In this document: positions 28,219-36,630 of the stretch, piece by piece | Layout: every line of letters starts with the position of its first letter | How positions within the stretch are numbered: the stretch's first letter is position 1 | NCBI GenBank assembly: GCA_951813395.1 | Contig: OX638356.1 | Location: 785,340 to 849,339 of the forward strand | DNA from: Longimicrobiales bacterium | GTDB lineage: Bacteria; Gemmatimonadota; Gemmatimonadetes; Longimicrobiales; Gaopeijiaceae | Reading direction: 5' to 3' | Length of the DNA stretch: 64,000 nucleotides | Program-made: the position numbers and the translations under genes | Notes under the pieces: model-generated | The model's input: only the letters and a program-made list of their open reading frames with translations | The model's database searches: none | What the model was told of the DNA's origin: nothing

Positions 28219-28988
28219 GCAGTCCCGCTGCCCCCACGGATGCGCCCGTGCTGACGGCCGAGCGGCTCAGCGTGCGGTTCGGCAGGCGCGTCGCGCTGAG
28301 GGACATCTCCCTTGCCATCCCACGAGGGCGGATCGTCTCGATCATCGGACCCTCGGGGTGCGGCAAGACCACTCTGCTGCGTTGCTTCAACCGCATGAAC
28401 GAACTCGCGTCCGGCGCCAGGACCAGCGGCACGGTTCACTTCGCCGGGATGGACCTGTACGGACCCGACATCGATCCGGTGGAGGTGCGCCGGCGCATCG
28501 GAATGGTCTTCCAGCAGACCACTCCGTTTCCCAAGTCGGTTTTCGACAACATCGCCTTCGGTCCTCGTGCGAGCGGTTTCACCGGTGATCTCCAGGGCCT
28601 GGTGGAAGAGGTGCTCACGTCCGTCGGTCTGTGGTCGGAGGTGGCGGACGACCTCGACACGCCCGCCCTGGAGCTGTCGGCAGGGCAGAAGCAACGGCTC
28701 TGCATTGCCCGCACGCTGGCGCTCAAGCCGGACGTCCTTCTGCTGGACGAACCCACCTCGGCTCTCGACCCCGAGGCCACGGCGCGGATCGAGTCGATTA
28801 TCCGCGCGCTGAGCCCCCGATACACCATCGTGATCGCCACGTACAACCGCTGGCAGGCCGCCCGGCTGTCGGATCTGACCGCGTTTCTGGACCGGGGCGA
28901 GCTGCTGGAGTATGGTCTCACCGAAACCCTGTTCACCAATCCGCGCGAGGCGCGCACGGAGTCCTACCTGACCGGGCGGACCCAATGA
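28215..28988 (+). CDS. pstB: Phosphate ABC transporter ATPase PstB with an altered H-loop
   Basis: 257 residues. Walker A is GPSGCGKTT at 45-53, Q-loop Gln100 in VFQQTTPFPKSVFDNIAFG, and Walker B VLLLDEPTSALDP from 174. Two motifs differ from usual PstB. The ABC signature reads LSAGQKQRL (154-162) rather than LSGGQ. The switch His in the normal THNMQQAARVSD is Tyr210 in ATYNRWQAARLSD. The Tyr codon TAC is unambiguous in the sequence. The first change is common and tolerated; loss of the H-loop His usually weakens ATP hydrolysis in ABC ATPases, so this transporter may be tuned differently. Confidence 0.9.
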   Translation: MSSPAAPTDAPVLTAERLSVRFGRRVALRDISLAIPRGRIVSIIGPSGCGKTTLLRCFNRMNELASGARTSGTVHFAGMDLYGPDIDPVEVRRRIGMVFQQTTPFPKSVFDNIAFGPRASGFTGDLQGLVEEVLTSVGLWSEVADDLDTPALELSAGQKQRLCIARTLALKPDVLLLDEPTSALDPEATARIESIIRALSPRYTIVIATYNRWQAARLSDLTAFLDRGELLEYGLTETLFTNPREARTESYLTGRTQ

Positions 28989-29677
28989 CGGAACCGCATC
29001 GTCCCCGAGGCTCCTTCGACACCGAGCTCAACCGCCTGCAGCAGATGCTGCTGGACATGGCGGGCCGGGCGGAGGAACTCGTGCGCATGGCGATGGACGG
29101 GCTGACCGAGCGCGACCCGCTCATTCCCCTGAGGGTTCGTCGCGCCGACGATCGCCTGAACGCCCTGGAGGTCGAACTCGACGAGCGCGTGCTGGAGCTG
29201 CTCGCGCTGCAGCAGCCGATCGCCAGCGATCTGCGCCTGGTCTTCGTGGCGCTGAAAGCGTCGAACGACATCGAGCGGATCGGCGACCACGCCGTGAACA
29301 TCGCCAACGCGTGCGAGCGCATGATGCGGTATACTCCGATGCCGGACATCCTGGAGATCGCCGAGATCAGCGGCCAGGTCCGGCAGATGATGCGCAAGGC
29401 CCTGGACGCGATGGTCAACCGGGACGCCGAGACGGCCAGGGAGGTGATTGCGGAGGATGACCGCGTGGACGACCTGCGGTGGTCCGCATTCCGGATCATC
29501 GTTTCGTACATGCTCGAGCAGCCGCGTTATATCGGCCCCGGGCTGGAACTGATCCTGGTGGTTCAGAACCTGGAGAGGATCGGCGACCTGACGACCAACA
29601 TTGCCGAAGACGTGGTCTTCCTGGTCGAGGGCACTTCGATCAAGCATGCGGCCGGCAAGGCGGTGGGTCCCGCATGA
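28985..29677 (+). CDS. phoU: PhoU phosphate-signalling regulator
   Basis: 230 residues made of two three-helix PhoU repeats. Metal-site motifs E/D-x-x-D-x-x-D appear as KASNDIERIGDHAVNIANAC in the first half and QNLERIGDLTTNIAEDVVFL in the second. PhoU damps PhoR and PstSCAB activity when phosphate is sufficient. ATG 28985 overlaps pstB by four bases. Bases 29362-29400, coding for about residues 127-139, recur in reverse complement at 35229-35267. Confidence 0.93.
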   Translation: MTEPHRPRGSFDTELNRLQQMLLDMAGRAEELVRMAMDGLTERDPLIPLRVRRADDRLNALEVELDERVLELLALQQPIASDLRLVFVALKASNDIERIGDHAVNIANACERMMRYTPMPDILEIAEISGQVRQMMRKALDAMVNRDAETAREVIAEDDRVDDLRWSAFRIIVSYMLEQPRYIGPGLELILVVQNLERIGDLTTNIAEDVVFLVEGTSIKHAAGKAVGPA

Positions 29678-33645: not shown

Positions 33646-34923
33646 CTATCCCGCCAGCCCCTTCTGCCGCCTCCCCAGCCACAACGCTACCCCCAGCCAC
33701 AACGCGGCTACCGGCGCCATCGACCAGGCCATTGCGGCCGTGCCCAGCCCCAACGCCCCGAATCCCGCGAAGGACCACGCCCCGACCTGGTCGCCCGCAC
33801 GGTAGACGAAGGTGTCGTTGAAGTTCTTCGCCTTGTACTTGTCACGGCGGGGCAGGACGGTGTAGAGAACCTCGCGGGCCGGCACCGCGAGCGCGAAGTT
33901 CCCGGCGCGGCGCAGCACCTGGAAGACGACGAAGACCGCGAAGACGGGTGCCGCGCCCAGGGCAAGGAAGCCGGCCACGCTCAGGAGCGGCAGGAACGCA
34001 AGGGTGAGCCCGACGCCGAACCGCTTCATGATGCGCCCGGTCAGGAACAGCTGGGTCAGCAGCGTCAGAGCGTTGACCGCCAGGTTGATGCGCGCGAACA
34101 CCGATGTGCGCTCGGCGGGATCGGCGAAGGTGCGCGACATGATGTCGGCCTGGATGTTGTACAGGAAAGTGGACCCGATGGTGAAGAGGAGCATGAAGAC
34201 GCAGATGCCCAGCAGGTAGCGCGAAGCGAGAACGTGTTTGATCCCGTCCAGTGGCGACCCGCCGATGACCTCTTCGTCGCGGCGAGGCGTAGCCGCGTCG
34301 CGCCCACGGCCCCTCGTCCTCCAGTCCAGCCCCTTCATGCACGCCACCGCGCATTCGAGCAGCACGATCGAGAACCACAGCAGGGTGGCGGGACTGAGGC
34401 TTTCGATCAGGAACGCGGTAATGGCTGACCCCAGGATTGCGCCCAGGGTCCCCGCGACGCCGATCAGGCCGAAGAGCCGGCGGCCCTGCCGCTCCGTGTG
34501 GATGTCGGTCATGAAGGACCAGAAGACCGAAACCACGAACAGACTGAACACGGCCGTCCAGACGAAGAACGACCGACCGGCCCAGATCGCCGCCGGCCCG
34601 CCCTGCGGGAGCGCGTTCAGCAGGATGTAGTAGGCGACCAGACACACCATGAAGAAGCGGTAGGTCACCGTGACGAATCGCCTCCGCGGCCACCTGGACA
34701 CGAGCGCGGCGAAGACCGGATGCGCCAGCAGCATCGCGGCCAGCGTACCCGTGAAGAGCCACGGGATGTTCTCCACGCCCCCGGCCACGCCCATCTCCTC
34801 GCGTATCGGCCGGATCACGTAGTACGCCGACAGCACGCAGAAGAAGTAGCCGGCGGAGAGCACGACGATACCTGCTTCCTCGGGTCGGGTGCCGGTTAGG
34901 CGAGACGCGACGTTGCGCGCCAT
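33646..34923 (-). CDS. ATP/ADP-translocase-like (NTP/NDP exchange family) membrane transporter, copy 1
   Basis: About 425 residues with 10-12 membrane segments. N-terminal features include YFFCVLSAYYVIRPIREEMG and GLIGVAGTLGAILGSAITAF; a C-terminal one is VLRRAGNFALAVPAREVLYT followed by KYKAKNFNDTFVYRAGDQVG. These match bacterial homologues of the Tlc nucleotide translocases. ATG 34923 (MARNVASRL) was preferred; an in-frame GTG at 34992 is possible. It is divergent from a paralog at 35284. Known Tlc proteins exchange ATP/ADP in obligate intracellular bacteria; free-living homologues have unknown substrates. Confidence 0.8.
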   Translation of the reverse strand: MARNVASRLTGTRPEEAGIVVLSAGYFFCVLSAYYVIRPIREEMGVAGGVENIPWLFTGTLAAMLLAHPVFAALVSRWPRRRFVTVTYRFFMVCLVAYYILLNALPQGGPAAIWAGRSFFVWTAVFSLFVVSVFWSFMTDIHTERQGRRLFGLIGVAGTLGAILGSAITAFLIESLSPATLLWFSIVLLECAVACMKGLDWRTRGRGRDAATPRRDEEVIGGSPLDGIKHVLASRYLLGICVFMLLFTIGSTFLYNIQADIMSRTFADPAERTSVFARINLAVNALTLLTQLFLTGRIMKRFGVGLTLAFLPLLSVAGFLALGAAPVFAVFVVFQVLRRAGNFALAVPAREVLYTVLPRRDKYKAKNFNDTFVYRAGDQVGAWSFAGFGALGLGTAAMAWSMAPVAALWLGVALWLGRRQKGLAG

Positions 34924-35283
34924 GGTCCGGGCGGGCGAGCTCACCGGATGGAGCCGGGCCGCTGGATCGGACGCGGGAATCGGGGCACGCACGACGGAAT
35001 CGTCATGGCGATCGGGGTGCGTTCCGGGATACCATCGCGTAGCAGTCCGTGGAGGAAACCGCGGGAAGCGGTCGCAACTTGCCTCCGTTGGAGGATGGGC
35101 TTCTTTTGCGGTACGTCAATGGCCGGGAGAGGAACGGCGCGCAGGAAAGCCGCTTTTCGCAACACACAGATCGGGGGATGAGGTTTGGCGAAACTACCAC
35201 GACGGTCTCTCGTTTCCGCAGGACGGCGCCTTGCGCATCATCTGCCGGATCTGGCCGCTGATCTCGTGAACCGGATCATCAAC
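34924..35283. promoter_or_regulatory. Intergenic region between divergent transporter genes
   Basis: About 360 bases without a convincing gene. It must hold the promoters of both divergent transporters. Codon-like bias is weak and short open frames on both strands have no recognisable content. The only identifiable element is the phoU-complementary segment at 35229-35267. I saw no clear -35/-10 pair or terminator. Confidence 0.6.
35229..35267 (+). repeat. 39-base segment reverse-complementary to phoU
   Basis: These 39 bases equal the reverse complement of phoU bases 29362-29400 at 38 positions. The single difference (T here, where C would be exact) would be a U-G wobble if a plus-strand leader RNA paired with phoU mRNA. 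The match does not continue on either side. It ends 16 bases before the ATG of the transporter at 35284. It may be a trans-acting pairing site, a fragment copied by recombination, or an assembly artefact. Confidence 0.85.
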
Positions 35284-36630
35284 ATGAAACGCGGCGAGTT
35301 TTCCCTGGCCGCGATGTCGGCCCTCTTCTTCTTCGTCATTCTCTGCGGCTACTTCTTCCTGCGTCCGGTGCGCGAGGCGATGGGCGTGGCGCGCGGGATG
35401 GACGAGCTGCGCTGGCTCTTCGCGATCAACTGCTTCGTGTCGCTCGGGGCGGTCCTTGCGTTCGGCGGAGTCGTGGCGCGCACGAACCGGCGCCGCTTCA
35501 TCCCGGTGGCGTACCTCTTCGTGATCGTGTGCCTGATCGGTTTCGCCGCGCTGCTGATCCAGGATGTGCGGACGGGGGGCGGCCTGATCGGCACCGACGC
35601 CCAGACCGCGCTTTCCCGGGGCGTGGGCTACTCCTTCTACATCTGGCTCACGGTCATCAACCTGTTCACCACCAGCGTGTTCTGGGCCTTCATGGTGGAC
35701 ATCTTCGACGTCGACCAGGGCAAGAGAATGTTCGCCTTCATCGGGATCGGGGGCACGCTGGGCGCCATAGCCGGAAGCTGGGCGACCAACCTCATCAGCA
35801 GCCTGACCGAGAGTCCCTACCTCCCGGCGGGCCTCATGCTGATCGGGGCGGCCTTCTTCGCGATGGCCATTGCCGTCATGCTCGTGCTGGAACGGATGGC
35901 GGTGCGGTCGGACGCGTCCGCGATGGAAGCGGTCGGCAGCGGGACCGCCGGCGATGGGGCGGACGATGGAGAGGGCAAGGGCGGCGCCGATGTTATCGGG
36001 GGCAACTTCTGGGACGGCGCCCGCGCCGTGGTCACTTCGCCGTACCTGCTCGGCGTCGGCATGTGGGTGGTGTTCATGGCCGTGTCCAACACGCTGATCT
36101 ACTTCACCCAGGCGAACATCATCCTGGGCGATTCGGACACCTTCAGCCAGCTGCTCGGCAACTTCGCGCTGTTCGACAACCTGGCGCAGATCGCGACCCT
36201 GATCACGCAGATCTTCATCACCACGCACGTGATCCGGAAGCTCGGCGTGGGGTGGACGCTGGCGATCCTGCCGCTGGTAACCATGGCGGGATTCGCGGTG
36301 CTCGCGGTGTGGCCGGTTTACGGGGTCATGCTGATCTTCCAGGCCGTGCACCGGGCGACCCGCTACGCCATTTCACGGCCCTCCCGCGAGACGCTCTTCA
36401 GCGTCGTGACGCCGTCCGAGAAGTACAAGGCCAAGCCGGTCGTCGACGTGTTCCTGTACCGGGGTGGAGATCTGGCCGGCGCGGGAATCGACGGTCTCTT
36501 CGCGTTGCTCGGGCTCACCCTGGTGTGGCTGGCCGTGTCCACGGGGCCGCTGGGGGCCATGTGGATCGCGCTGTCGATAGGACTCGGAAGGGCTCAGGCG
36601 CGCAAGGTGGCCCAGGGGAGCGGCGGATAG
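35284..36630 (+). CDS. ATP/ADP-translocase-like (NTP/NDP exchange family) membrane transporter, copy 2
   Basis: 448 residues, 10-12 membrane segments. It parallels copy 1 throughout: YFFLRPVREAMGVARGMDEL against YYVIRPIREEMG; FAFIGIGGTLGAIAGSWATN; VHRATRYAISRPSRETLFSV; and KYKAKPVVDVFLYRGGDLAG. A cytoplasmic loop rich in Gly/Asp/Glu (about 230-250) separates the halves. ATG 35284 (MKRGEFSLAAM) matches the expected N-terminus. An upstream ATG at 35185 in frame would translate the phoU-like segment and is less likely. Substrate unknown. Confidence 0.82.
   Translation: MKRGEFSLAAMSALFFFVILCGYFFLRPVREAMGVARGMDELRWLFAINCFVSLGAVLAFGGVVARTNRRRFIPVAYLFVIVCLIGFAALLIQDVRTGGGLIGTDAQTALSRGVGYSFYIWLTVINLFTTSVFWAFMVDIFDVDQGKRMFAFIGIGGTLGAIAGSWATNLISSLTESPYLPAGLMLIGAAFFAMAIAVMLVLERMAVRSDASAMEAVGSGTAGDGADDGEGKGGADVIGGNFWDGARAVVTSPYLLGVGMWVVFMAVSNTLIYFTQANIILGDSDTFSQLLGNFALFDNLAQIATLITQIFITTHVIRKLGVGWTLAILPLVTMAGFAVLAVWPVYGVMLIFQAVHRATRYAISRPSRETLFSVVTPSEKYKAKPVVDVFLYRGGDLAGAGIDGLFALLGLTLVWLAVSTGPLGAMWIALSIGLGRAQARKVAQGSGG

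Follow-up and report, generated by a model that had tools for sequence, protein, structure and literature searches.

The 64,000-nucleotide stretch of DNA analyzed here (the window) contains a phoU gene and two divergently transcribed, paralogous transporter genes, one of which is preceded by a short segment matching phoU in inverted orientation. The features that enter the argument are listed below.

28985..29677, plus strand: phoU, matching PF01895 and the PhoU equivalog TIGR02135 (206.9 bits; cut-off, 130.25)
29362..29400, minus strand: source segment within phoU, whose antisense strand supplies the plus-strand sequence seen at the target
33646..34992, minus strand: divergently transcribed paralog of the target gene, 39% identity
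35185..35283, plus strand: predicted in-frame N-terminal extension from TTG 35185, including 12 insert-derived codons, LAHHLPDLAADL; without the insert the frame stops at a TGA
35228..35266, plus strand: 39-nt match to the phoU reverse complement (38/39)
35231..35264, plus strand: 34-bp insert proper, lacking in relatives
35266..35268, plus strand: GTG, probable ancestral start, matching the GTG with upstream GCAGG in two congeners, G003 and G016
35284..36630, plus strand: conserved core of the target gene, encoding a membrane protein distantly akin to NTP/NDP exchange transporters or the MFS type, with weak TIGR00769 and MFS_1 matches

The target protein matches TIGR00769 with 29 bits against a cut-off of 387, and its match to MFS_1 also falls below the cut-off. 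The label "nucleotide-translocase-like" given in the initial annotation is therefore a fair description of a weak similarity, but not an assignment to a family or a substrate. The divergent paralog exceeds the cut-offs for both MFS_1 and TLC. The nearest relatives with names are metagenome-assembled genomes of Gemmatimonadota and Longimicrobiales, and isolate names suggest that the host may be sponge-associated. The intergenic region between the two transporter genes also harbors, at about 35074-35125, a block of ~50 nt, CTTGCCTCCGTTGGAGGATGGGCTTCTTTTGCGGTACGTCAATGGCCGG, that shows strong conservation throughout the genus, in contrast to the diverging sequence around it. On the minus strand, this block holds an ATTGACG-like -35 sequence, and it may serve both paralogs as a common divergent promoter or regulatory site.

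Ungapped comparison of window positions 35228-35266 on the plus strand with the reverse complement of phoU 29362-29400 gave 38 identities in 39 positions. The initial annotation had described this match, with its single exception, correctly; the locus it named is also right, but its coordinates for the transporter copy, 35229-35267, are one base too high. Identity breaks off sharply at both edges, as had been noted, and the sole mismatch is a T for a C, which permits a U-G pair, such that all 39 positions can pair. The 39-bp RNA duplex that the transporter and phoU mRNAs could form has a computed energy of -87.0 kcal/mol. No other inverted repeat of equal quality is present in the window and, across the whole 4.09-Mb genome (E<=0.001), the region matches only phoU besides its own locus. 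Given the base composition of the window, chance would be expected to yield 7e-11 inverted matches of this kind in the window and 6e-7 in the entire genome. Chance is excluded as the origin of the match, as the initial annotation had maintained.

The nature of the segment is revealed by relatives that lack it. We searched 98 related genomes, 22 of them congeners, with a query of 121 bases around the segment. In G003, a genome of the same genus, the two flanks are directly joined, GCAGGACGGCGCC|CGTGAACCG: query positions 27-51 align to 105348-105372 and positions 86-119 to 105373-105406, which are adjacent with no bases between them. A longer reading across this empty site is TCTTTCGCTTCCGCAGGACGGCGCC|CGTGAACCGAATCATCAACATG, compared with TCTCTCGTTTCCGCAGGACGGCGCC, TTGCGCATCATCTGCCGGATCTGGCCGCTGATCT and CGTGAACCGGATCATCAACATG, in that order, in the genome under study (G000). 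Because both flanks abut in G003, the insert proper is 34 bp long (35231-35264), and no target bases have been lost relative to G003. The remaining five matching bases are junction microhomology common to source and target, GCC on the left (35228-35230) and CG on the right (35265-35266), though overlaps this short (2-3 nt) could be coincidental. G016 has a near-identical empty site, one base shorter, and G019, whose protein is 94% identical, and G017 likewise lack the insert, with more diverged flanks. None of the 22 congeners searched showed the insert ahead of the transporter; in the 98-genome search, the segment was recovered from congeners solely as phoU, and the closest of them show the transporter flanks without it.

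The phoU source stretch encodes ordinary conserved PhoU sequence, AEISGQVRQMMRKALDAM, common to relatives, which identifies phoU as the donor. Two positions, numbered in the orientation of the insert, bear on the direction and age of the copying. At base 15, the phoU genes of G003, G019 and G016 carry T, while both phoU and the insert of G000 carry C, a base found among the congeners compared only in G000's own phoU. At base 23, every phoU compared (G000, G003, G019 and G016) has C, and the insert alone has T. Because the C at base 15 is shared and the T at base 23 is private, copying ran from phoU to the transporter, recently and within the G000 lineage. By this comparison, the copy was made from the phoU of this lineage after its split from the known congeners and gained its one substitution later.

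Collectively, these data argue that the segment is very probably a lineage-specific, one-off templated insertion of a phoU fragment ahead of the transporter gene in a single genome: an inverted short copy from 5.8 kb away, with an intact source, microhomology at the joins and no loss of target sequence. Its near-exact source is retained, the flanks are joined in relatives (cleanly in G003, one base shorter in G016) and microhomology of 3 nt and 2 nt is present at the junctions. The template-switch insertion that the initial annotation had listed among its options thus gains support from the empty site in a relative and from the microhomology at both ends. Most likely, the insertion is the product of an accident in DNA repair or replication rather than of the evolution of a regulatory link. 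The setting may have been a break under repair, or a fork that had stalled, in the region separating the divergent transporters. There, an inverted copy of 34 nt would have been taken from phoU, some 5.8 kb distant, and joined through the 3-nt and 2-nt microhomologies, with the empty site indicating that no target bases were lost; the C-to-T change in the copy would have followed, all after G000 had separated from the known congeners.

The route may have been a polymerase that switched template and returned, or a short fragment captured at a break during Ku/LigD joining with filler. The first resembles replication-based template-switch insertion (MMBIR/FoSTeS-like), which likewise yields short copies of a nearby locus in either orientation, with microhomology joins and an intact source. 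In the parts of the literature consulted, most descriptions of templated insertion by template switching come from eukaryotes (e.g., PMC5120786, PMC7954356). The bacterial case found there concerns local quasipalindrome events in Escherichia coli (PMC7202029), whereas the source here is 5.8 kb distant. The second route is available to the host, because the genome encodes both Ku (167.6 bits) and, about 2 kb from it on the other strand, a LigD with a polymerase domain (232 bits). Bacterial Ku/LigD nonhomologous end joining with added bases shares with this locus the presence of both enzymes and short microhomology joins, but 34-nt templated inserts from a distant locus are not an established product in the portions of the literature found. 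Between replicative template switching and Ku/LigD end joining with captured filler, the data favor neither.

Such an insertion looks rare: the 400 kb surrounding the locus, about 10% of the genome, contain no other inverted dispersed copy of this size and identity, and hence do not demonstrate a general mutational process. A general wave of similar events was considered and rejected, as the remaining short near-identical repeats in the 400 kb are mostly tandem or internal to larger repeats. The same repeat set includes a perfect 36-bp palindrome, CCTTGGTGGGAGGGCGCGCGCGCCCTCCCACCAAGG (L143, G000:C1:1017402-1017437), near one arm of an inverted repeat of 1.5 kb (1001108-1002649 and 1015784-1017325). 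It also includes an identical 30-bp direct pair, CGGTGCTCGGGCGGATTCATCCACGGACTG, with copies 144 kb apart at L129 (G000:C1:736589-736618) and L137 (G000:C1:880272-880301), which is apparently a separate motif. A similar ATCCACGG-CTGCTAGTCC string adjoins the transporter in G009, and the 30-bp repeat may therefore be a dispersed short motif.

The evidence comes from one assembled genome of the species, in which a fixed insertion, a rare allele and an error look alike. Library artifacts with inverted fragments do occur, and the initial annotation had raised an assembly chimera as an option. We consider an assembly or library chimera very unlikely: a 34-bp internal insert between intact flanks would be an unusual assembler error, the copy bears a private substitution relative to its source, the contig is a single 4.09-Mb sequence and the junctions are clean, with 2-3 nt of microhomology.

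A further reading is a selected RNA pairing site, in which the transporter mRNA would pair with phoU mRNA in trans and thereby tie a nucleotide carrier to phosphate control; a trans-acting pairing site had been among the options of the initial annotation. phoU and the transporter are both on the plus strand, hence their mRNAs are complementary here, and the sole change retains pairing through U-G. Such long, fully pairable complementarity to another mRNA is also what trans-acting antisense pairing in 5' leaders displays. However, any newly made inverted copy is bound to pair perfectly with its source, such that the complementarity is automatic, and a single wobble-preserving change is no sign of constraint. 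The segment was not found at this site in the 22 congeners searched, and two of these, G003 and G016, have phoU and the transporter similarly spaced. Because no congener searched carries it, neither conservation nor covariation supports selection; the alignment of relatives that the initial annotation had suggested leaves nothing to covary, and a conserved regulatory pairing was not found in the 98 related genomes. Nor does any known RNA family match, as the entire window is devoid of Rfam hits. We therefore regard selected pairing as extremely unlikely. A mobile short repeat inserted at both loci, akin to the Rickettsia palindromic elements, would account for near-identical short segments at two places but has next to no likelihood, given that only two copies exist genome-wide, that the copy in phoU belongs to the normal, conserved coding sequence that relatives share and that the empty site shows no target-site duplication past the 2-3 nt overlaps.

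The templated insertion also bears on where translation of the transporter begins. The initial annotation placed the segment in a plus-strand leader before the ATG. The strand is correct and an ATG is present at 35284, but "leader" is doubtful, because relatives have their start farther upstream and the insert could be part of the coding sequence. In the congeners G021, G012, G006 and G001, the frame extends past the conserved ATG to a start 51-54 nt upstream of it, with a Shine-Dalgarno (SD)-like energy of -11.0, in a comparison that leaves out minus-strand loci (such as L006, L007, L011, L014, L017, L021 and L023). The strong SDs before these upstream starts suggest that N-terminal extensions are normal in the genus. 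In G003 and G016, the start is likely the GTG 18 nt upstream of the ATG, which GCAGG precedes at normal spacing. Since relatives put the start upstream, ATG 35284 is probably not the true start codon. In G000, the corresponding GTG (35266) borders the insert on its right side, and the insertion has moved an SD-like AGGA 34 nt farther from this codon; the SD-like energy of this GTG is -3.8 with the insert and -6.0 without.

Farther upstream, TTG 35185 (SD-like energy -8.6) aligns with a GTG start in both G019 and G017. With the insert, this TTG opens a frame that continues into the transporter as LAKLPRRSLVSAGRR-LAHHLPDLAADL-VNRIINMKRGEF; if the insert is removed, the same frame ends at a TGA overlapping the GTG, as the corresponding G017 frame still does. 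The private C-to-T change is synonymous in the fused frame (GAC to GAT). A likely side effect of the insertion would thus be that the old AGGA was distanced from the GTG and the short upstream TTG frame joined to the transporter. The protein may thereby gain a 33-residue extension before ATG 35284, 12 residues of which would come from antisense phoU sequence. Judged from the reading frames, whether the fused start at TTG 35185 is used is an even call; GTG 35266 or ATG 35284 could be the start instead. The transporter leader of G017 (L055) has an upstream frame of 16 codons preceded by an SD-like GGGGGG, and the overlap of its TGA with the transporter GTG suggests translational coupling. Its counterpart in G019 is 2 nt shorter and hence fused to the transporter. 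That the antisense insert has created a new link in one mutational step, pairing with phoU mRNA and altering expression of one or both genes while also adding N-terminal coding sequence, seems highly improbable.

The locus provides a clean bacterial example of a small inverted templated insertion from 5.8 kb away, complete with an empty site and junction microhomology. It indicates that mutation alone can create long, fully pairable complementarity between two mRNAs and warns against inferring regulation from complementarity. If the fused frame is indeed used, an antisense copy of a coding sequence would have become new protein sequence in a single step.
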